From a virus: a stretch of 35,696 nt of DNA. Position numbers and translations under genes: made by a program. The stretch's first letter is position 1, and each line of letters opens with the position of its first letter. The stretch is from positions 1 through 35,696 of IMG/VR virus record IMGVR_UViG_3300007351_000036; one strand, given 5' to 3'. The notes under the pieces are model-generated. The model had not been told where the DNA came from. It ran no database searches and saw only the letters and a program-made list of their open reading frames with translations. Positions 5,283 through 31,189 of the stretch are shown here, piece after piece.

Positions 5283-7169
5283 CTAGTATCCGAGCACCGT
5301 GGTTTCCCCTAAGACCGCGTAGGGGGCGAACTCGTCGTCGCCGTTTGTGACATGCCAGTATTTGGTCGGATCAGAAGGCCAGAGCGTCCAGATGAACTGC
5401 CAGCGAAACTCCTCGCTGATCAGAACCTCGATGCACTGCACCTCGTAGTCAGCCTCGATCAGCGCGCCGCCGCCGGGCCGCCGTCGGATGGTGTAGCGAT
5501 CGCCGATCTCGGTGCCCAGCACGATCGGCCAGAGCCGGTCGTCCCCCTCCGGATCGAGCACGATCGTCTTGATCCGCCACTGCGGATCTTTTCGCCGCGC
5601 GAGCAGCCAGTTTGCGCGGTCGGCCATCTCGCTGTCGCTCGCCGCCAGCAGGTCCGTGTCTGGCAGGGTGCGCGCGAAGTGGTCGAACTTCGAGGCGCCG
5701 TCGCTCGCCGTCTGCGCCGCGCCGTTCTTCCTCTGACAGACCACCTCGTTGTAGAGCTCCGAGTCATCGTAGCTGGGCTCGAAGTCCACGTAGGGCAACT
5801 CGTCGCCGCCGCCGTCGCCGAAGATCGCCTTGGGGGTCTGGTGATCCGGACGCAACAGGTAATGGCGGTCCCGGAAGTACAGCGCCCCCTCGCGGCCCAT
5901 AAAGAGCTGCCCGTACTCGGCCTTCTCGACGTCCTGCAGGTGTGCCAGGGCGTCGACCTTGTCGCTAGCCGTGAACGTCTGGGCCTGCACCGTAGTCTTG
6001 CCAAGCATCACATAGCGGTCGCCACTCGTCGGGGCGAGGATGGTGCTCGTGCCGAGCTGCGAGTTGGATAGCGAGTCGAGTACCCAGGCGTCGCCCGTGG
6101 TCCAGCCGATGTCGTCGAGCACCTCGTTGACCCGCTCACTGGAGAGCTGCTCCGCGTAGGCCTTGTTCAGGATCTTCTTTGCCAGCACCTTGAAGCCATC
6201 GGTGGCCGTCAGCGTGACGTAGAAGTCGCCGACCTCGAAGGCGGGCGGCCAGCCGTCGACGTAGCCCGCGAACATCGGGTAGGTGACACCGGCCCAGACG
6301 GCGCTCTGCCAGAGGCGGCGGGTCGGCTTGAGGTTGCCGTAGTAGGGGCCGCCATAGTACGAGTAGCTGTTGTGCGCGGCGCCGGCCCACCGACAGTTAT
6401 CGAGGCCACCAATCACAGGGTAGTGCGTGACGGTAGGGCCACTCTGCAGCTGGACGTCATCGATCCGGACCGTAAACGTATCCCCATTGTCGAGATTCGT
6501 GATGTCGAGCATTGCCCGCACCTTGGCCGACAGCACCGGAGCGACGACGTTCAGCACCTCCAGCATCACCCAGTCGCCTGTGACGGCAGTCAGCGAACTA
6601 GACCCGTACTCCCCCACGAGCGTATCGTCAGCCTGCCTGATCTGAATCACTATCCTGATGGCGCAGCCGGAGATGACCGAGACGTCTAGGGTAGCCTTGA
6701 GCGACCATGAATCGCCGGGGACAGTGCTGGCATACTCCGTTTCCATCACGGTGACGCGACGCGTGGCCGTGAGGCCGGAGAGCGGGAACATAGTCAGTAC
6801 GCACTGGCTGTATCCCACGCCTCGAGGGGTGCCTATGTCTTGCAAGAAAGTGATCTGCCCGTTCAGCTCCGAGCTTGAGAGCCATCGAGTCCAGCCGGAG
6901 CTGAGGCCGGGAATCGAGCCTACTCCGCGCTCGAAGGTAGGGTCTTTGCAGTAGTTCTCAATCTCACCGGCGAAAGTCGGATCGAAGCGCCGATCTTGGT
7001 TGTCGAGCACGCCCGAGTAGGTGCCAGCTTGAAACGGCTCCCGCGGATGCGACCGGCCGCGCCTGATGTGGATCGGCCCCCGGATCTTGCCGGTCACGTC
7101 GATCTTGGTCGGCGCCTCCGTGGGCCGTGTGCTGAGGGCGAGCTGGCTTAGCAGTGCTGGCTGGGACAT
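5283..7169 (-). CDS. Tail tip hub protein with inserted carbohydrate-binding-like module
   Basis: 628 residues, ATG at 7169, 1 nt after the tape measure stop. Residues 1-70 (DVTGKIRGPIHIRRGRS, then GTYSGVLDNQDRRFDP) resume after about residue 255 (KPTRRLWQSAVWAGVTYPMF, then AGYVDGWPP). This is the pattern of phage tail-tip hub proteins that follow the tape measure. Residues about 73-250 form an insertion beginning CKDPTFERGV and ending FTVRIDDVQLQSGP, typical of jelly-roll carbohydrate-binding modules. The C-terminal half (VDALAHLQDVEKAEYGQLFMG) matches hub domains that close the tail. Likely roles are DNA exit gate and glycan contact. Confidence 0.7.
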   Translation of the reverse strand: MSQPALLSQLALSTRPTEAPTKIDVTGKIRGPIHIRRGRSHPREPFQAGTYSGVLDNQDRRFDPTFAGEIENYCKDPTFERGVGSIPGLSSGWTRWLSSSELNGQITFLQDIGTPRGVGYSQCVLTMFPLSGLTATRRVTVMETEYASTVPGDSWSLKATLDVSVISGCAIRIVIQIRQADDTLVGEYGSSSLTAVTGDWVMLEVLNVVAPVLSAKVRAMLDITNLDNGDTFTVRIDDVQLQSGPTVTHYPVIGGLDNCRWAGAAHNSYSYYGGPYYGNLKPTRRLWQSAVWAGVTYPMFAGYVDGWPPAFEVGDFYVTLTATDGFKVLAKKILNKAYAEQLSSERVNEVLDDIGWTTGDAWVLDSLSNSQLGTSTILAPTSGDRYVMLGKTTVQAQTFTASDKVDALAHLQDVEKAEYGQLFMGREGALYFRDRHYLLRPDHQTPKAIFGDGGGDELPYVDFEPSYDDSELYNEVVCQRKNGAAQTASDGASKFDHFARTLPDTDLLAASDSEMADRANWLLARRKDPQWRIKTIVLDPEGDDRLWPIVLGTEIGDRYTIRRRPGGGALIEADYEVQCIEVLISEEFRWQFIWTLWPSDPTKYWHVTNGDDEFAPYAVLGETTVLGY

Positions 7170-7170
7170 T

Positions 7171-9921
7171 TCACCGCCCCCAGATGCGGCCGCCGTTGCG
7201 GTCGCCGTGCTCGATGTGCTCCTGTCGCATGATCTCGGCCACGATGCGGCCGTTCATCTTCACGTAGACCGGCTGTTTGGCCAGCGCCATGGCGAGCCGG
7301 TCATAGTCGATGATGCCGCCCCGATCCAGCGGGGCGACGAGCTCCGGCCGCCCGTTCATCGCCAGCGCCGCGATGGTCGGGCCCGTGACGATGGCGCCGG
7401 TATCCAGCGTCGGGATCAGCGGGATGTCCGGCGTCTCGATCTTCCAGCCACCCCACTCGCCGCCGCCCATCCAGTCCGGCTTCTTCACTGAGGGCAGCGT
7501 GAAGCTGAGATCGTTCCACGCCTGCAGCAGATTGTTGAGCATCGCGATCACGGCATTGATGCTGTCCTTGGCAAACTGAGTGTAAGCCTCCCAGTTCTTG
7601 CCGGCGTTCTTCGTGAACTCGCCCCATCTACGTCCCGCCTCGTCGGCGAAGCCCTGCCACGCCTTCCCCAAGTCGTCGATGCCGCGCATGATCGGCTCTT
7701 TCATCAGCCCCCAGCCGATCGCGACCGCGGCGAAGGCCCACACGAGCGGCCCGCCGAGGAATGCGGCGATGAGCCCCACCGCGGTGAGGATGCCGCCCAG
7801 CAAGAGCCGGTTCTCGTCTACCCACCTGGCGGTATCGCGCAGCCAGCCCACGGTGTCGGTGCCCAACCGAACCATGTTGCCCAGGAACCGCACGACGTCC
7901 TTGGCGTTGTTCGTGAGCCCCCGGACGTCCTCCACGGCCTGCCCGCTCCCGATCCACTCGAAGAAGCCGACCATCGCCTCCTTCGCCTTCGGCCCGATCT
8001 CCTCGAGCCCGCCGGCTAGCACGTCGCCGATGGCCTCGCCCCACGCCATCACCTGCGGCTCGTTCGCGTCGAGGTACCCCAGCAGGTCGGCAAGGCTCTC
8101 CTTCGCTCTCGCGAAGACCGGCTTCCCCATCACCTTCTCGAACTTGATCCAGATGTCGCCGAGGTTGGAGACGATGCCGCGGAAGGTGGTCATCTGCTCG
8201 GCCATCATGCCCTTGAAGCGGACGTCGAGCGCCTCCTTGACCCGGGCGAGGGCCTCTTCGGTGGGCGTGACCAGCGAGCCCTGGGCGTCCCACTTCAGCC
8301 CCTCGATGTCGCGCAGGTTGATGCCGAGGTACCGAAACGCCTCGACGGCCTCGCCGAGCTGGCCCGCGGAGAGCCGGCCGAAGGCGGAGATCACCTGCTC
8401 GACGGGCTTGCGCATCCCGGCCGCGACGTTGCCGACGGTGTCGAAGTAGTCGACGGCGTTGAGGCGGAACGCCATCAGGAGATTCGTCGCCTCGGTGAGC
8501 TCGGGGATGTTGAAAGGCGTGCCGGCCGCCTTCTTCTCGATGAACTCGAGCATGGCAGCGGCACGCTCCTCGGCGCTGCCTAGCGTCCGGCCGACGAAGG
8601 AGGCGAGGTCGGCGTACATCTGCTTGAGCTGGTTGACGCCGCCGCCCTGCGTGCGCTGAACCCTCTGCATCGCCGCGGCGTAGCCCTGACCGGCCTTGGC
8701 GATCGCCTCCTGGGCGTCGCGCACTGTGCGCGCGTACTGCCGGGACTCCTCCGCCTGCCGCTCCTTGAGCGCCGCCAGCTTCTCGGCCTCGGACTCCTTG
8801 TAGGCGGCGAGGTCCTCGTCGTACTTCGCCTTGCGCTTGGCCACCGCCGCGGCGTACTCGGCCTCCTCCTCGGCCATCCGCCGCTGGAGCTCCGCTACCT
8901 GTCGATCGTGCGACTCGCGCGCCGCGGCCTCCTCCGCCTCGTACCGCGCCTTGGCCGCCGCCTCCGCCGCCGTCAAGGCCTCCTTGGCAGCGTTCTCTTC
9001 CTCGACCTGCTTGGCCTTCTCGCGCGCCTGAAACTGCGCGAAGGTCTGGTTTTGGAGCGACTGCTCCTGGGCGAGGCGGCTGCGCAGGGAGGCAAGGAAC
9101 GCCTGATCGGCGCGCGCGCCCTTGGCCTGCTCCTCGGCAATCGCCTGCTGGATGAACTCGGCGTTGCGCTCGGCCGCTTCCCGCTCGCGCAGGAACCGGT
9201 CGGGGGCTGTCCGCGCCTCCTCGGCGAAGCGCTGCCGGATGGTGGCGATCTCCTCCCGGTAGCGCCGCTGTCGGTCGGCCATCTCCTCGTCGAAGCGCCG
9301 GCGCCGCTCCGCGCTCTGTCGGGTGAAGGCGGCGCTGTACTCGTCGAGCTGCCGGCGAAGGCCGTCCATCGTGCGGCCGTGGCTGCCGGAGAGCTCGGCG
9401 AGCGAGTCGCCGAGATCCTTGGCAAGGCGCGCGAGCGAGCGGGTACCCTCCTTCTCGAGGTTCCCGAACTCCTTGGCCAGCTTCTCGAGGGCGTAGCGGT
9501 GGTCTTCCGCGGCGTCCGCCATCCGCTGTTGGGCGTCCTGCATCGAGGAGGCAGCTCCCGCCGTGGCGGCCGCGAGCTCCTCCTGGGACATCGCCGCCTT
9601 GCTCGACTCCGCCGCGGCGTCCGACATGAGCACCTTGAACGACTGGCGCATCGACTCCACCTCGGCGTTGAAGTTGAACATGCCGCCGACGGCGCTCTGG
9701 ATGGCGCCGGTGATGCCGCCCAAGGCCTGCAGGCCCAGCATCCCCGTCATGAAGCCCGCGGCTTGCGACGCGACGCTGCCCAGCATCGAGCCCAGCCCGC
9801 CCAGGGCGCTCGACGTCGCCCCGGCGGCCTGCTGGAGCCCCTTGAGGGAGTGGCTCGCCGCCTGCACCGGCCGGCTCAGGCCGTCCTTGCCGACTACGTA
9901 GACTTCGACGACGTTAGACAT
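7171..9921 (-). CDS. Tape measure protein (TP901-type) with large coiled-coil insertion
   Basis: This 916-residue protein sets tail length and crosses to the host with the DNA. ATG at 9921. Residues 25-110 are Gly/Ala-rich with a hydrophobic helix. Residues about 125-415 are a highly charged heptad-like coiled coil rich in Glu, Arg and Ala. Residues about 440-545 carry the TP901 core (SAEERAAAMLEFIEKKAAGTPF, split here from its N-terminal part, and GNVAAGMRKPVEQVISAFGR). Residues 705-740 are membrane-spanning. The C-terminus (LAMNGRPELVAPLDRGGIID) is typical for the family. It lies directly after the frameshifted chaperone, as expected. Confidence 0.93.
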   Translation of the reverse strand: MSNVVEVYVVGKDGLSRPVQAASHSLKGLQQAAGATSSALGGLGSMLGSVASQAAGFMTGMLGLQALGGITGAIQSAVGGMFNFNAEVESMRQSFKVLMSDAAAESSKAAMSQEELAAATAGAASSMQDAQQRMADAAEDHRYALEKLAKEFGNLEKEGTRSLARLAKDLGDSLAELSGSHGRTMDGLRRQLDEYSAAFTRQSAERRRRFDEEMADRQRRYREEIATIRQRFAEEARTAPDRFLREREAAERNAEFIQQAIAEEQAKGARADQAFLASLRSRLAQEQSLQNQTFAQFQAREKAKQVEEENAAKEALTAAEAAAKARYEAEEAAARESHDRQVAELQRRMAEEEAEYAAAVAKRKAKYDEDLAAYKESEAEKLAALKERQAEESRQYARTVRDAQEAIAKAGQGYAAAMQRVQRTQGGGVNQLKQMYADLASFVGRTLGSAEERAAAMLEFIEKKAAGTPFNIPELTEATNLLMAFRLNAVDYFDTVGNVAAGMRKPVEQVISAFGRLSAGQLGEAVEAFRYLGINLRDIEGLKWDAQGSLVTPTEEALARVKEALDVRFKGMMAEQMTTFRGIVSNLGDIWIKFEKVMGKPVFARAKESLADLLGYLDANEPQVMAWGEAIGDVLAGGLEEIGPKAKEAMVGFFEWIGSGQAVEDVRGLTNNAKDVVRFLGNMVRLGTDTVGWLRDTARWVDENRLLLGGILTAVGLIAAFLGGPLVWAFAAVAIGWGLMKEPIMRGIDDLGKAWQGFADEAGRRWGEFTKNAGKNWEAYTQFAKDSINAVIAMLNNLLQAWNDLSFTLPSVKKPDWMGGGEWGGWKIETPDIPLIPTLDTGAIVTGPTIAALAMNGRPELVAPLDRGGIIDYDRLAMALAKQPVYVKMNGRIVAEIMRQEHIEHGDRNGGRIWGR

Positions 9922-14519: not shown

Positions 14520-15716
14520 TTACGCGCCGCTTCCGTTGCTCGCCACGCTTGCCTTCGGATCCAGCCTGGTCCCGCCGATGATGTGCATGCCCTTGTAGCG
14601 GATCTCGTTGGAGTCGAAGTCGCCCAGCGCCGGCTCGAGGCCGCCGCCGACCCGCTGCGTGTTCGGCGCCTTCTGGAAGAGCGCCGGCTCCTCGTAGCCG
14701 CGCAGGAAGGTCACCTCGAGCGCGGGCCGGCCGACGTTGGGGTCGGCGAACAGGAACCAGCTCGTGTTGCCGTTGGCCGCCGTCGCGACGATCGGGATGT
14801 AGGGGTCGACGACGAGCCGCACGCGGTTGCGCATCCAGTTCTGCGCCTTGAGCTGCTGCTGGGCCGTGCCCGCCGCGGCATTCGGGTCGATCGTGATCTC
14901 GGTCGCGTTGATGATGTTCTGCGCCGTGATTTCGAGCGCCGGCGGCACGACGAGCACGACGACGTCGATGAAGATCGGCTCGCCGTTGGCGTCGACCATC
15001 GCCGCGAGCACCTGCATCGCCGTCTGCAGCCCCGTAATAGAGAGCGCGGGGTTGCCAGTGACGATGTTGGCGTTGCCCGCGGTGTAGAGCGAGGCGTGCG
15101 GGCCGTTCGCGTCGACGTAGAGCTGCGTGGCAAAGCGCGACTCGGTGCGCCGCGCCCCGCGCGCCAGCCGGGCCGGTAGGTCGCGGAAGGCGTCGAGATC
15201 GTCGTTGATGAGCATGCGCCAGTTGATCCCGAAGGCCTTCTCGTAGACCTGCACCTGGGTCAGGTACCCAGTCTCGGCGAGGTCGTCGCTCTGCTTGACC
15301 GCGGTTTGCTCGGGCTTCAGATAGTCGGGGTAGTAGCCCCCTTCCAGCCCGTCCATGGCGATGCGCCGCGCCTGGCGGAAGTCGCGCACCGTGCCCTGCC
15401 GGGCGAAGGCTCGCCACACGGCCGGCCACTCTCGATAGTTCGCGAGGAGCTGACGGTCGAGGATGTCGCCCATCAGGAGCGGGAAGTCGCTGGTGGACAT
15501 CGCTTCCTGTAGGCGGTGAGCCGGGATGCGCCCTTCGTAGATGCCAGCAAGGAAGTCGGTGGCCTCGGCGAGGCGCTGCATGTACATCGGCGAGCGCGAG
15601 CCACCGCGGATCAGCCGGCCGCTGCGGGCATAGAGCTGCTCGACCTGGGCCTGCTCGGCCCGGATGGACTCGCGGAGCTCCCAGAACTCCATCGGCTTGA
15701 CTGCTGCAACGGTCAT
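14520..15716 (-). CDS. Major capsid protein
   Basis: 398 residues, ATG at 15716. Residues about 1-110 are helical. The body resembles the Mu gpT/HK97-fold capsid family: RDFRQARRIAMDGLEGGYYP, VQVYEKAFGINWRMLINDDL, ARLARGARRTESRFATQLY, and a C-terminal block with EVTFLRGYEEPALFQKAPN. It follows protease/scaffold and cement genes and precedes connector genes, which is the standard order. The subunits should form the icosahedral shell. Confidence 0.85.
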   Translation of the reverse strand: MTVAAVKPMEFWELRESIRAEQAQVEQLYARSGRLIRGGSRSPMYMQRLAEATDFLAGIYEGRIPAHRLQEAMSTSDFPLLMGDILDRQLLANYREWPAVWRAFARQGTVRDFRQARRIAMDGLEGGYYPDYLKPEQTAVKQSDDLAETGYLTQVQVYEKAFGINWRMLINDDLDAFRDLPARLARGARRTESRFATQLYVDANGPHASLYTAGNANIVTGNPALSITGLQTAMQVLAAMVDANGEPIFIDVVVLVVPPALEITAQNIINATEITIDPNAAAGTAQQQLKAQNWMRNRVRLVVDPYIPIVATAANGNTSWFLFADPNVGRPALEVTFLRGYEEPALFQKAPNTQRVGGGLEPALGDFDSNEIRYKGMHIIGGTRLDPKASVASNGSGA

Positions 15717-16518: not shown

Positions 16519-16983
16519 CTACCTCCGTCCTGCCGCCGCGATCTTGGCGGCCGATTCGTTCAGGCCCAGCCGCTTGAAGGACTCCTCGATCTGCCGCTCG
16601 GAGTCCTGCAGAGCCGCCGGCTCGCCCCCCTCGCTCGGGCCCATGCCGCGGATCTTGCCGGAGCCGACGATCGCCTCGAGGTAGGCCATCTCCTGCTTGG
16701 CCGTCTCGGCGATCTGCTTGGCGAAGGCCTCGCGGTCGAGCTTGCCCTCCGCCACCGGCGGGTTGGCGGCGAGCGCCTCCACCAGCCGATTGCGGGTGAG
16801 GTCCGGCATCCCCGCGACCCGGCCCAGCGCCTCGGCGACGAAGCTGCGCGCCTCGGCGAGGAGCGCCCCTTCCTCGAAGCGCTTCACCTTGGCCTCCAGC
16901 TCGGCATTGCGCGCTTCGAGGCGGCTGACCTTCTCCTCGAGGATTGCCTTCGCCTCGACCAGTTGCTGAAGATTCAGGTCCAC
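16519..16983 (-). CDS. Nested scaffold protein from an internal start, 154 aa
   Basis: AAAAGGAGG precedes an in-frame GTG at 16983 by 8 nt inside the protease/scaffold gene. Translation from there gives the coiled-coil scaffold alone, beginning VDLNLQQLVEAKAILEEKV. Lambda produces its Nu3 scaffold from inside the protease gene C in the same way. Such a strong ribosome-binding site inside a gene in exactly this place is unlikely to be chance. Confidence 0.62.
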   Translation of the reverse strand: MDLNLQQLVEAKAILEEKVSRLEARNAELEAKVKRFEEGALLAEARSFVAEALGRVAGMPDLTRNRLVEALAANPPVAEGKLDREAFAKQIAETAKQEMAYLEAIVGSGKIRGMGPSEGGEPAALQDSERQIEESFKRLGLNESAAKIAAAGRR

Positions 16984-18030
16984 TTGGTCCCCCTCCTTTT
17001 GGTCTGTGCGGCCTGGTCGGGCCGCCTCGAATAGCGAGAGGATCTCGCCGCCTCTCCCGGCACGGGTCACGAAATCAACGCTCTTGCCGAGCGTAATGGC
17101 CTCGACGATCGGCCCCTTGCGCCCTTCGGCCTCGCCCTCCTTGGAGAGCCCGCCGCCGCGGATCGAGAGCCCGATGTGCTCCGCCAGCTCCTCCACGGGC
17201 TTCTGGTAGGCGCCGAACACCTTGGCGCTGGCGTAGAGCCCCGGTCCCTTGGGGCCCTGCTCCTGCCACTTCGCGTCCTCGGCGAGCACCGCCGCGAGGT
17301 CGCGCAGGTCGCGCTCCGGACGGCCGGCCTCCTCGGCCTTCGTCGGGTGGTTCCAGTACATGTGCATCCCCGACTTGAAGACCTTGGGGCCGTCGCGCTG
17401 GAGCACCTCCTTCGGGTAGTAGCCCGACGTGCCCCAGCCCGGGGTGATCAGGCGCACCGGAATGGTGCCGTCGCGGCGCACCTTCGCCTCGATGAGCTCG
17501 ACGCAGTCGCCGATGAGCTCGGTGTCCGCGCCGCCCTCGGAGATCTCGGTCGGCTTAGCCGCGGGATCGCCCCCGCCCTCCTCGGTGGGCAGCTCGGCGG
17601 CCGACTCCTGAGCCTTCTTTACCGGCTCGTAGGTCGTGACCGCGACGACTTCCTCCGGCTCGCCGAGCGTGACCTTATTGTCGACGAGCGCGTAGCTGCG
17701 GCGGTAGAGCTTGCCGGGGCTAACCGAGCCCGACGGCCCCTCGTCCTCGTAGACCACGGCCTGTGGGTAGACGTCGCGGACGTATATCCACCGCTTGCCG
17801 GCGGGGTCGATCTCGTTGCGGATCGCCGCACGCAGCAGGCTCTTGATGTCGTCGAAGGACATCTCGGCCTCCTGGAGCTGGCGGAGGGCCTCCGTGGCCT
17901 CCTTGCTCTCGTCGCCGCCCGTGGCCTCCGGCACGGCGAGCAGCGCCTCGAGCGCGGTGATCGCCGCCCGGATCTGCGAGGCGGTGGCGGCGCTGATGCG
18001 CTTGCCGATCTCGGTTAGGTTGATCTGCAC
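16519..18030 (-). CDS. Capsid maturation protease fused to scaffold
   Basis: 503 residues, GTG at 18030 behind GAGAGGAGG. Residues 55-140 form a phage-specific domain (KRWIYVRDVYPQAVVYEDE). Residues 170-330 resemble a prohead protease: GMHMYWNHPTKAEEAGRPER with His228, then ELAEHIGLSIRGGG with Ser289, the likely catalytic pair. Residues 350-503 are a coiled-coil scaffold (LEEKVSRLEARNAELEAKVK). The protease should cut the scaffold and capsid N-termini during maturation. A strong internal ribosome-binding site suggests a separate scaffold product. Confidence 0.78.
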   Translation of the reverse strand: MQINLTEIGKRISAATASQIRAAITALEALLAVPEATGGDESKEATEALRQLQEAEMSFDDIKSLLRAAIRNEIDPAGKRWIYVRDVYPQAVVYEDEGPSGSVSPGKLYRRSYALVDNKVTLGEPEEVVAVTTYEPVKKAQESAAELPTEEGGGDPAAKPTEISEGGADTELIGDCVELIEAKVRRDGTIPVRLITPGWGTSGYYPKEVLQRDGPKVFKSGMHMYWNHPTKAEEAGRPERDLRDLAAVLAEDAKWQEQGPKGPGLYASAKVFGAYQKPVEELAEHIGLSIRGGGLSKEGEAEGRKGPIVEAITLGKSVDFVTRAGRGGEILSLFEAARPGRTDQKEGDQVDLNLQQLVEAKAILEEKVSRLEARNAELEAKVKRFEEGALLAEARSFVAEALGRVAGMPDLTRNRLVEALAANPPVAEGKLDREAFAKQIAETAKQEMAYLEAIVGSGKIRGMGPSEGGEPAALQDSERQIEESFKRLGLNESAAKIAAAGRR

Positions 18031-18050: not shown

Positions 18051-18107
18051 TCACGCCGCCTTCAGCCGTGTGCCCGGCTTCTGCCGGTACAGGCAATCGC
18101 ACCGTCA
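18051..18107 (-). pseudogene. In-frame continuation of the minor head gene past a TGA at the conserved Cys
   Basis: The minor head frame stops at TGA (18107-18105) right after GHPA, then continues RCDCLYRQKPGTRLKAA to a second TGA at 18051. The Mu gpF-like family ends in HPxCRC; here the first Cys position of CRC is occupied by TGA. The second stop lies 20 nt before the next start, matching the tight spacing of this operon, whereas the first leaves an atypical 74-nt gap. It is either a recent nonsense change, a sequencing error, or recoding. Confidence 0.6.
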
Positions 18108-18929
18108 GGCCGGATGGCCCAGGGGCCGCTTGTGTCCGCTCTTGAACGCCTGCCGGAGCGGGATCCAACCCTGCGCCTGATTTCCCCGGCACAGCTTGCT
18201 CACCCGGTCATCCCCTACGGTCTGCCAGTACTTCTCGATCTCGTAGCCCTCGCCGGCGAGATCCTCGGCCGCGGCGAGGTTCCCCTCCTCGTAGGCGTTG
18301 CCGAGCTCCGTCGCCGCCACCAGCTCAGCCCGGTTCTTAATGTGCCCCTGCGGCCGCGGCGCCGCGAACTCGCGGAACTGGGCGACGATCGCCTTCGCGT
18401 ACTGGTTGACCGACCAGCCCTGCTCGGCGCCACGGGCGAGGATGCCGCGGATGACCGTCTTGGTGGTCGCGTCCACGTGGCGCACGAGCTCGGCGCCGCA
18501 CTGGTCGAGGTAGGCGACCGCCCGCGGGTTCTCCAGCGTGAAGGAGAGGCCTGCCGGCGCGAGGTCGGTATAGAGCGACTGGCCGGCGGCCAGCATCGCC
18601 TCGGCGACTGCTTGCTCCAAGGGCGCCGTGAAGAGCTCGCGCGCCTCGGCGGAGGCCGCATCGAGCAGCGCCAGGATCGCCTCCCAGTCGGGCTCTGGCG
18701 TGGCCACTGGCGCCGCCTCGACGAGGGGCAGCAGGTCTTTCCGCGCGGAAAGACGGCGCGCGAAGGCCTGCCCCTGGGCGACGAAGGCCTTCCCGACAGC
18801 CTTGGCCAGCCGCTTCTCGAGCTTGCGCAGACGCCAGCGCTTCGAGACCCGCCGCGCCGCCTCGAGAAACTGGTCGAGGGCATCGAGCAGGAAATCGGCG
18901 ACGGGATCGCCCAGCGCAAGCGAGAGCAT
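18105..18929 (-). CDS. Minor head protein, Mu gpF-like (head morphogenesis), C-terminus truncated
   Basis: 274 residues, ATG at 18929. The N-terminal half is helical and basic. The C-terminal half is the gpF-like domain: AVAYLDQCGAELVRHVDATT, then RGILARGAEQGWSVNQYAKAI, RAELVAATELGNAYEEGN, a KYWQTVGDDRVSKLCRGNQ block, and a final GWIPL...GHKRPLGHPA. These proteins associate with the portal and enter the capsid. The conserved last motif is cut by a TGA. Residues 61-64 (SARK) come from palindrome copy 3. Confidence 0.8.
   Translation of the reverse strand: MLSLALGDPVADFLLDALDQFLEAARRVSKRWRLRKLEKRLAKAVGKAFVAQGQAFARRLSARKDLLPLVEAAPVATPEPDWEAILALLDAASAEARELFTAPLEQAVAEAMLAAGQSLYTDLAPAGLSFTLENPRAVAYLDQCGAELVRHVDATTKTVIRGILARGAEQGWSVNQYAKAIVAQFREFAAPRPQGHIKNRAELVAATELGNAYEEGNLAAAEDLAGEGYEIEKYWQTVGDDRVSKLCRGNQAQGWIPLRQAFKSGHKRPLGHPA
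18735..18754. repeat. 20-bp perfect palindrome around TTCCGCGCGGAA, copy 3
   Basis: The longest member of the palindrome set, GTCTTTCCGCGCGGAAAGAC, inside the minor head gene. It encodes LSARKD there. Confidence 0.85.
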
Positions 18930-19333: not shown

Positions 19334-19719
19334 TCGAACCGCCTCCCCTCTACGTCGTCGCCGATAATGCCGTCCCGGATGAAGCCGTGGTACTCGCCGA
19401 CGCAGTTGATCGACGGCGTGACCGTGATACAGGGTGGCTCCCCCGTGACCGTCCAGCCTCCCTCGCCGGCCCCATCCGCCCTGCTGTCCACGCAGAACCA
19501 GCGACCTCCCTTGTAGCTCGCGCTGGGCAGGCAGACGAAGATCGGCGGCCGCTTCCCAAGCCAGTCCCGCTTGTACTCAGCCGACAGGATGTGCTCGAGG
19601 TAGAAGCCGTCGTGCTCGGGGTCGAGCATCTTGGGCGCGAACCACATATCGCCCACCTCGGGCTGCCTGCCCTCGGCGACTTGCCGCTCGCGATCGATTA
19701 GTCGACACGGCCAGCTCAC
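19330..19719 (-). CDS. DUF6527-like protein, 129 aa
   Basis: GTG at 19719 overlaps the portal stop as GTGA; the end overlaps the next GTG likewise. Features are GDMWFAPKML, RDWLGKRPPIFVCLPS, GGWTVTGEPPCITVTPSIN, and CVGEYHGFIRDGIIGDD at the end. The block W.VTG.PP.ITV.PSI...C...HGFIRDG matches my memory of DUF6527, a small family found in phages and beside bacterial ubiquitin-like conjugation genes. No ubiquitin-like, E1 or E2 gene is visible here. Its role in a head operon is unknown. Confidence 0.5.
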   Translation of the reverse strand: MSWPCRLIDRERQVAEGRQPEVGDMWFAPKMLDPEHDGFYLEHILSAEYKRDWLGKRPPIFVCLPSASYKGGRWFCVDSRADGAGEGGWTVTGEPPCITVTPSINCVGEYHGFIRDGIIGDDVEGRRFE

Positions 19720-21410
19720 GCCGCCCTCCTCATCACCTCGGCGATCGCCGCCCGCAGCTCGCGCACCGCCTCGACGAAGGTCACCATCGCCTCATCGGTC
19801 TCGGAGACGTCCCGCTCCCCATCGTCACCCTGCTCATCGTCTCCCTGCCCGGGCTTCTCGCCCTGACCCTGCTTGGCGATGGCCTGCGCCATCTGCTGCT
19901 TCTCGGCCCGCCGCTTCGCCAAGAGCGACTCGCCGTCCTCCGGCGCGATCTTCTTCAGGAGCTCGTCGAGGTCCTCGATGCCCAGCGCCGACAGAAGCAG
20001 CCGCGCGAGCGTGTGATCGTCCATCGTGCCCACCGGCTCCTTGCCGTCCAGCGTGGCGGCGGAGATGACCGCCCGGATCCGCGCCTCGACGTCGCGCTCC
20101 AAAAGGTCGGGGAAGCTCACCTCGACGGTACGATCCTTGCCCTCGGGCAGCTTCCCGTTCATCGCCTGCGCCCTCTGCTCGATCACGAAGGCGAGGATCG
20201 CCTTGAAGACGTCGGCCCAGAGCGTCCGCCGATCCAGAAACTTGAGCTCGGTCGGGCGGTCGAGCGACTTCGCCGTGGCGAGGTTCCCGGTGGACACGTC
20301 GCCGAAGAAGGTCTCGGGCAGCCCCACCGCCGCGGCGACCATCAGCAGAAAACGCCGGCCCTCCTCGGGGTTGATCGTGGCGCCGCTGACCTTCATGGTC
20401 TCGAGCTTGTTGCCGGCGGCGGCGATGAAGGCCGCGCCCGCCGTCGGCGGCGGGTTCGTCTCCGACGTGCTGACGCCCAGCGTCGTCTTCAGCTTGTCCT
20501 TCGCCGCGGCGACGCCCTTCGCCCCGCCCTGAGTAGTGAGCTGGAAGACGAACCGCGAGAGGGCCCGGCTGATCGTCGCCCGGTCCTCGAGAAACTCCTT
20601 GTAGGCCCGCGCCCAGTCGAGGGCCTGATAGGTCTCGGGCAGGCCGAAGCGCATGTCGCTCAGCGCACCCACCCTCACGTGGTAGACCGGGACATTCCAC
20701 TCGACCTTGGCGCCCTGCGGCAGCACCGCGGCCGGATCGTCATTCCGCGCGGAAAGATCGCTAGCGCCATCCAGCTCGCCGCCCGCGACGTTGCGCCGCT
20801 CGAGCCGCCAGTCCGGGTAGTAGACCGTCTTCTGCTGGCCCCCTTGCGGCGTGTACACCCGCTTGTAGAACCAGGGCGACTTGGCGTCCTCCGGGTCGGT
20901 GACGATCTCCGCCACCTCTTCGACGGGAATGGTGCGCACCTTCACGGCCCCCGTGCTCTTGTCGGTGAAGAACACGAAGAACAGGTTGCCGAGCACCTGC
21001 AGGTCGCACTCCTTCAGGGTCCGCGCTTGATGCGAGGTGAGCTCCGCGCGGTTCGCCGGGTCGTCGAGGAACCCTTGCACGACCTCGTTGACCGCGGGAT
21101 CCTTGGCCTGGATGTTCACGCCCTGCGCCCAGACGTAGTAGGCCTGGACGTTGACGGCACGGTTGACGATCGGGTTCTTGAGGTACATCAGGCGTGACTG
21201 CCTGATGATCCGCGTGAGGGCCTCGCGACTGAACTCGCGGTCATTCTGCAGGTCGCTCAGCCTCGTCCAGCCCTCCTCCTCGAGGGCGAACTCCAGCTCG
21301 GAGATACGCTCCAGGAGGAGTGTGAGCGTCTCCTGGTAGCCGCTCTGGCTCTCTCGCAGCTCCGGTCGCCCGGTGGTCTCGGCAAGCCTCTGCCGCCGCT
21401 TCCTGCTCAC
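19716..21410 (-). CDS. Portal protein
   Basis: 564 residues, GTG at 21410. The portal dodecamer forms the DNA entry vertex. Family features include an N-terminal helix, YLKNPIVNRAVNVQAYYVWA, GFLDDPANRAELTSHQART, a stem region ending VPVYHVRVGALSDMRFGLPE, and MVAAAVGLPETFFGDVSTGN near residue 360. The C-terminus is acidic and Gln-rich (KPGQGDDEQGDDGERDV). It directly follows terminase, as expected. Residues 220-223 (SARN) come from palindrome copy 4, in a loop-like stretch. Confidence 0.9.
   Translation of the reverse strand: MSRKRRQRLAETTGRPELRESQSGYQETLTLLLERISELEFALEEEGWTRLSDLQNDREFSREALTRIIRQSRLMYLKNPIVNRAVNVQAYYVWAQGVNIQAKDPAVNEVVQGFLDDPANRAELTSHQARTLKECDLQVLGNLFFVFFTDKSTGAVKVRTIPVEEVAEIVTDPEDAKSPWFYKRVYTPQGGQQKTVYYPDWRLERRNVAGGELDGASDLSARNDDPAAVLPQGAKVEWNVPVYHVRVGALSDMRFGLPETYQALDWARAYKEFLEDRATISRALSRFVFQLTTQGGAKGVAAAKDKLKTTLGVSTSETNPPPTAGAAFIAAAGNKLETMKVSGATINPEEGRRFLLMVAAAVGLPETFFGDVSTGNLATAKSLDRPTELKFLDRRTLWADVFKAILAFVIEQRAQAMNGKLPEGKDRTVEVSFPDLLERDVEARIRAVISAATLDGKEPVGTMDDHTLARLLLSALGIEDLDELLKKIAPEDGESLLAKRRAEKQQMAQAIAKQGQGEKPGQGDDEQGDDGERDVSETDEAMVTFVEAVRELRAAIAEVMRRAA
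20743..20754. repeat. TTCCGCGCGGAA palindrome, copy 4
   Basis: Inside the portal gene, read as LSARND. The minus-strand context is CTTTCCGCGCGGAATGAC, close to copies 1 and 5. Confidence 0.85.
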
Positions 21411-27382: not shown

Positions 27383-27937
27383 CTACGCCCGTGCTGATTT
27401 GACCGTGCCGGCGATCCCCGCAAGCCCCGCCCGGGCGCGCTCCTGCGCGAGGGCCTCGAGCTGCCGCGCGATGCCCGCGGGCACCTCCCAGAGCATCTGC
27501 GCGCCTGGGCACTCGATCGGCTCCTTCAATGGTATGATGCCCTTGACGTCGAAGCCGAAGCGCCCCGGCCCGTAGTTGCCGCAGAGCCGCTCCAGGTGCG
27601 AGATCCGCGGCAAGAGGTACCCGGTCGGCCGGCAGTCTTCGAGGTAGCCAACGGCGACGATCGCGCGCCGCGGCAGCAGGGTGTGAAACACCGCCGGCGG
27701 GATCTCCCCCTTCAGCCACTTCAGGTAGTGGCGGAGGACGCGCTCGATCGGAGCCTCGTAGCAGAAGTCGACGCACTCCTGGGGAAACTTGACCGTCGCG
27801 TGTATGGCGATCGGGCCGCGGTAGTCCGTGGCCCAGTCCCGCGTCTCGATGCCCTTCGCGGGCCGCGGGCCGTCCGGCGTCTGTATCATCGCCGCCATCA
27901 GGTGTCCGTACGGCGGCCAGAGGCTAATCGCTTTCAT
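27383..27937 (-). CDS. ASCH-domain protein 1
   Basis: 184 residues, ATG 27937. It carries the ASCH signature, an opening strand with ISLWPPYG, then KGIETRDWATDYRGPIAIHA. A C-terminal phrase (YGPGRFGFDVKGIIPLKEPI, then CPGAQMLWEVP) matches the second ASCH protein of this window. ASCH is a small RNA-binding beta barrel; E. coli YqfB of this fold removes acetyl groups from N4-acetylcytidine. Lys and Glu of K.IETR are kept. A role in RNA or nucleoside handling is inferred. Confidence 0.78.
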   Translation of the reverse strand: MKAISLWPPYGHLMAAMIQTPDGPRPAKGIETRDWATDYRGPIAIHATVKFPQECVDFCYEAPIERVLRHYLKWLKGEIPPAVFHTLLPRRAIVAVGYLEDCRPTGYLLPRISHLERLCGNYGPGRFGFDVKGIIPLKEPIECPGAQMLWEVPAGIARQLEALAQERARAGLAGIAGTVKSARA

Positions 27938-30620: not shown

Positions 30621-31139
30621 TCACCACCTCACTGCCGGCAACTGCTCGCGGATCCGCTGCTCCACATCCGGCGGTAAGCGCCAGAGTCCGAGGGCGCCTT
30701 TGCAGGGGATCGGCTCGGGCAGGCGGTGGGTGTTCCGCAAGAACAGGCCATGGCGCCCTCGGGAATAGTCGCCGAAGGCATACTCCTGCTCGCTGAGCTT
30801 GTTGACCCAGGCCTCCGCGAACGTGCCGCACATCGGGCGAGAAGTGGGGCGGCAGTCGTACACTTCGGTCACAGCGACGATCACTCCGAGTGGCAAGCCG
30901 TCCGCTGGGTTGATGAGATAGCTGGTCTTGGGGTCGGCTTGTGGCAGCAGGTGGCGCTGCAGGTGGCTGTGAAATGGTTCCTCAAGGCAGAGAGCGCGCG
31001 CCCACGCTGGGAAGCCCTTGGCGGCGTGAATCGCCAGCCAGCCTCTGTAGGACGTCGACCAGCTCCTTGTTTCGATCTTCTTGGCTTCGATCGATACTAG
31101 ACTGGCATGCGGTTGGGTTAGGGATAATCCACGAATCAT
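30621..31139 (-). CDS. ASCH-domain protein 2
   Basis: 172 residues, ATG 31139, 4 nt after AGGAGG; a GTG one codon earlier is too close. ASCH motifs are GLSLTQPHASLV, AKKIETRSWSTSYRGWLAIHA, and YSRGRHGLFLRNTHRLPEPI followed by CKGALGLWRLP. It is clearly a paralogue of the ASCH gene at 27.4-27.9 kb, with the same order of motifs but a longer middle. Roles suggested for ASCH proteins include RNA binding and modified-nucleoside hydrolysis. Confidence 0.78.
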   Translation of the reverse strand: MIRGLSLTQPHASLVSIEAKKIETRSWSTSYRGWLAIHAAKGFPAWARALCLEEPFHSHLQRHLLPQADPKTSYLINPADGLPLGVIVAVTEVYDCRPTSRPMCGTFAEAWVNKLSEQEYAFGDYSRGRHGLFLRNTHRLPEPIPCKGALGLWRLPPDVEQRIREQLPAVRW

Positions 31140-31189
31140 CACACCTCCTCCAGTCCGTTCAACAGCAGCCTGCAGCAGGGGCAGCGCAT
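31139..31189 (-). CDS. Possible 16-aa peptide with CPCC
   Basis: ATG 31189 to TGA 31139, just before the second ASCH gene and sharing bases with its start. The peptide begins MRCPCCRLLL, like the start of a zinc finger. The AAGGAG before it is too close for normal initiation. It may be a truncated gene or chance. Confidence 0.2.
   Translation of the reverse strand: MRCPCCRLLLNGLEEV

Follow-up and report, generated by a model that had tools for sequence, protein, structure and literature searches.

A TGA codon at a conserved cysteine of a MuF head morphogenesis gene in a phage contig, most probably a single-base nonsense change

The Mu gpF-like (MuF) head morphogenesis gene of the phage analyzed here is interrupted near its 3′ end by an in-frame TGA at the site of an otherwise invariant cysteine. 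We consider it highly likely that this TGA is a single-base nonsense change, either a very recent mutation or an error in the metagenome consensus, the two being taken together. The DNA examined (the window, 35,696 nucleotides; IMG/VR record IMGVR_UViG_3300007351_000036) makes up the whole of contig C13 in a draft genome of 2.3 Mb and 82% completeness, and its features of interest are collected in Table 1.

The head gene starts at an ATG at position 18929 on the minus strand and has 274 codons before the TGA at 18107-18105. A sequence-only reading of the window had reported that the frame runs on past this stop, which it does for 17 codons (RCDCLYRQKPGTRLKAA) before a second TGA at 18053-18051. 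The same reading had given 74 nt between the first stop and the start of the downstream gene (GTG at 18030) and 20 nt between the second stop and that start, and both distances are correct. Its proposal that the TGA stands in place of the first cysteine of the family's C-terminal HPxCRC also held, the motif in relatives being [HF]P[AGN]C[RH]C, and both the homologue alignments and the family profile bear out RCDCLYRQKPGTRLKAA as genuine coding sequence of the MuF head protein.

Table 1. Features of the window that bear on the interrupted head gene, with the evidence for each.
Feature	Position	Strand	Evidence or remark
Capsid gene	14520-15716		Among the neighbors of the head gene
Head maturation protease-like gene, next gene	16519..18030	-	PHROG head maturation protease 2.2e-28; frame intact against homologues
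Second TGA, expected end of head gene	18051..18053	-	20 nt before start at 18030
17 sense codons RCDCLYRQKPGTRLKAA, rest of family C-terminus	18054..18104	-	Homology past the TGA
Hairpin AGCCG-GGCACA-CGGCU, marginal SECIS fit	18064..18079	-	5 bp, 6-nt loop starting GG
Hairpin CGGUGCG-AUUGCC-UGUACCG, directly past the TGA	18085..18104	-	Predicted RNA fold
In-frame TGA, residue 275, site of invariant Cys	18105..18107	-	Homologue alignments
MuF head morphogenesis gene, interrupted	18105..18929	-	274 aa + TGA
Portal protein gene, intact	19716..21410	-	PHROG portal 1.1e-84; 73 sense alignments without a stop

The contig is that of a siphovirus-like phage with a MuF head morphogenesis gene. The head protein matches the PHROG head morphogenesis families phrog_3517 (1.3e-18) and phrog_2468 (5.3e-18), is 31-49% identical to its homologues over its whole length, and scores 22.7 bits (E=1.7e-4) against Pfam Phage_Mu_F (PF04233), which is under the gathering score of 29.6. 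The gene is set among portal, protease-like, cement and major capsid genes, and the presence of these portal, protease and capsid neighbors is consistent with membership of the MuF family. The C-terminal CxC of the family is incomplete in the frame, its first cysteine being the TGA, and is completed only on read-through. Elsewhere in the window, two genes (27383-27937 and 30621-31142) match the same family, phrog_3193 (unknown function), and may be paralogues, and a radical SAM domain protein (phrog_9298, 2.2e-33) is encoded at the contig edge (34479-35381).

Homologues were collected from two IMG/VR searches and one GTDB search, giving a set of about 85 loci; in GTDB a single-sequence query found nothing, and an alignment query gave a single relative, from an Actinomycetes MAG. 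When the homologue frames were compared with the window by tblastn, 82 alignments spanned the TGA and a cysteine lay opposite it in all except one (81/82). The exception, L018, has a two-residue insertion that misaligns it in tblastn, and its cysteine falls at the site in the multiple alignment; a further locus, L094, stops short of the TGA. At the position of the TGA the homologues have GCRC, ACRC or a close variant, after which the frame runs on for anything from a few codons up to a few dozen. The C-termini of L036 (GCRCDCLYRRKP) and L044, which end CRCDCLYRRK, are almost identical to the tail in the window, and remoter relatives in other genomes have the pattern CPxC...HPxCRC. The homologue alignment that the sequence-only reading had suggested as a check thus supports it, as every relative that reaches the site has the cysteine and no relative without the tail was found.

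Among 52 aligned sequences, C275 is invariant (with the TGA of the window recoded as U and counted) and so is C277, while at the first cysteine, C247, a single sequence has His and the other 51 have Cys. Judged from these alignments, MuF proteins have an essentially invariant CxC at their C-terminus. The exchange of Cys and His at C247 and a spacing typical of a metal site lead us to suggest that the CxC cysteines are metal ligands, a reading that depends on the sequence pattern, since no solved relative was found by sequence or, at E <= 0.001, by fold. A motif scan of 2.9 million viral contigs in IMG/VR returned 36 with TGC or TGT at the site and 0 with TGA, and in a profile search of 399 genomes the one internal stop in the MuF family was that of the window itself. 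Two further loci of the family are of interest in their own right. In L039 (IMGVR_UViG_3300037722_000103, from ~2819 onward) an apparent intein is inserted exactly at a conserved cysteine of the head gene, with the pattern FPG/CLPGWQGVV...TCTPNHPIL...GGIVTHN/CRCDEFYRVKSQEAG (slashes mark the ends of the insert), and the cysteine directly after the insert is the one that the TGA replaces in the window. The draft genome that contains the window also has a second, distant MuF relative (L161, L159; contig C72, about 6904-7731) that ends HQQCRC and perhaps belongs to another prophage.

The tail beyond the TGA has the appearance of that of an intact gene. In a leave-one-out comparison with the family profile, the eight codons past the TGA scored 21.3 bits, where intact members average 19.8; the window ranks 22nd of 52. 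This match is not due to chance, because among all eight-codon stretches of the window, 71,344 over the two strands, only one reaches that score, the tail itself being counted. An AlphaFold model built with 52 sequences (mean pLDDT 87.6, against a poor 63 when only 10 sequences were used) has values of about 88-92 for residues 271-290 and predicts that residues 278-283 form the last beta strand, with pLDDT near 90. That the tail is undecayed in a protein only 31-49% identical to its relatives indicates that the stop is recent, is absent from the molecule, or is read through.

The genetic code of the phage contig is ordinary. In a frame check of the seven structural genes with enough homologues, in which sense frames only were counted (most further stops stemmed from antisense or other frames), no internal stop was present besides the head gene TGA; the other stops crossed lie in frame, immediately upstream of start codons. 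A change of code across the contig was rejected, with one interrupted gene among the seven tested and TGA terminating 10 of the 21 genes checked, in agreement with the earlier claim that TGA is a stop elsewhere in this phage. A decaying prophage was likewise rejected, as the head gene is the one interrupted gene among the structural genes that have homologues. Neither a terminal repeat nor a tRNA gene is present in the contig, and no integrase was found among the families searched.

Of the four explanations listed by the sequence-only reading, a nonsense change and a sequence error are favored by these data, selenocysteine insertion is disfavored, and read-through is possible, with programming of it unsupported. 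If selenocysteine were inserted at the UGA, the product would be a phage head selenoprotein, a reading that we regard as extremely improbable. It has in its favor a TGA opposite the cysteine of many homologues with conserved flanks, a hairpin that marginally fits the bacterial SECIS model, and the frequency of selB in the class of the binned host. Selenocysteine use is patchy in the lineage of this draft genome, with selB over the cut-off in 63 of the 101 genomes searched (its own and 100 relatives), one in the same family, and not in its own. A search of the binned host for the sel genes, one of the checks suggested earlier, found no selA, selB, selD or tRNA-Sec over the cut-off in this 82% complete genome. 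The tRNA-Sec candidates coincide with ordinary tRNA genes or adjoin them, and none of them is a Sec tRNA in the ARAGORN list. As relatives often have selB and the genome is 82% complete, these absences are meaningful but not final. The host was assigned by binning, and the link is unproven because the tetranucleotide correlation between contig and host (0.49-0.58) is below that among host contigs (0.65-0.74). Prediction of a SECIS downstream of the UGA, under a bacterial model and its limits (PMC13188914), gave a hairpin at 18079-18064, 30 nt beyond the UGA, that fits marginally (-7.8 kcal/mol relative to a limit of -7.5); however, 4.4% of phage codon positions pass the same test on the MFE structure and 10.2% if any local hairpin is allowed. 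The UGCC/GGCA stem noted earlier after the TGA can pair, but the RNA prefers the CGGUGCG/UGUACCG stem, most pairs of which are kept, in a comparison by eye, by the matching codons of the Cys homologue L012; this hairpin is therefore a by-product of the codons for CRCDCLYR. In a published survey, two or more TGA sequences were demanded, and a lone TGA/Cys pair was treated as a candidate only, for which sequencing error is possible (PMC1088965); the window is the sole family sequence with a TGA (0 TGA against 36 Cys in IMG/VR). The site also resembles a metal ligand, as far as its pattern indicates, rather than a redox cysteine.

Somewhat less improbable, and still unlikely, is that the stop is tolerated because it leaks. 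A near-cognate tRNA could decode, in a small fraction of passes, the UGA, which is followed by C, a weak stop context as cited for the RF2 frameshift site (PMC5289835); a few full-length copies might suffice, and the stop may even set their dose. The undecayed tail and the copy number of SPP1 gp7, the studied MuF protein, present in just 1-2 copies per capsid (PMC5576092), are compatible with this. Yet decoding by a near-cognate tRNA would put a residue such as Trp in place of the invariant cysteine, no other family member has a stop at the site, and the contig has no suppressor tRNA; as the stop is absent from all relatives examined, the conservation expected of programmed read-through is lacking among them. 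That the stop is fixed, that this lineage can do without the tail and that 274 residues make the working protein is, in our estimation, as remote a prospect as selenocysteine. While the remainder of the head gene is intact, the CxC and the last strand are invariant in all relatives, none of which is without the tail, and the tail is without decay.

We therefore return to a single-base nonsense change, in which TGC or TGT would have become TGA at the first cysteine of the C-terminal CxC. This requires one substitution and no indel, and it agrees with the presence of the cysteine in all homologues that reach the site and with structural genes that are otherwise uninterrupted. Against it are the marginal SECIS-like hairpin and the difficulty that a thriving phage would not be expected to have a nonsense codon as the majority allele of a head gene. 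The stop is probably young or not real, because the tail has not decayed in so diverged a protein. If the TGA is real, the ribosome would halt at 274 residues and the last 18 residues would be lost, among them both CxC cysteines (putative metal ligands) and the C-terminal strand predicted by the model. The protein would then presumably have lost its function recently, although leakage at UGA-C could soften the effect. We think it very unlikely that the UGA at this probable metal-ligand cysteine encodes selenocysteine, or that its leakiness is deliberate and sets the number of full-length copies per capsid. Were such recoding true, a phage virion protein would be a selenoprotein or would have its dose set by read-through, and our literature search found no phage example of either. 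When a TGA/Cys pair turns up just once, in a metagenome contig, a nonsense change or a base error is the simplest account, and caution is warranted; the TGA in this head gene is most likely an ordinary event rather than a new reading of the code.

Comparison with known systems places the window as follows. It resembles phages with a reassigned stop (e.g., genetic code 15, PMC9523058) in having an in-frame stop within a gene, but differs from them in that one gene only is affected and TGA still ends genes elsewhere in the contig (10/21). With bacterial selenoproteins that have TGA/Cys pairs it shares an in-frame TGA opposite a conserved cysteine and a frame that continues, but here the pair occurs once, no Sec machinery was found in the binned host, the SECIS fit is at background level and the residue is a probable metal ligand. 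Relative to MuF proteins (PF04233), including Mu gpF and SPP1 gp7, the protein scores under the Pfam gathering cut-off, meets a TGA before its motif is complete and has no C-terminal toxin domain; it is like them in the site of its gene between the portal and protease genes, its PHROG head morphogenesis matches and its C-terminal [HF]P-x-C-R-C motif.
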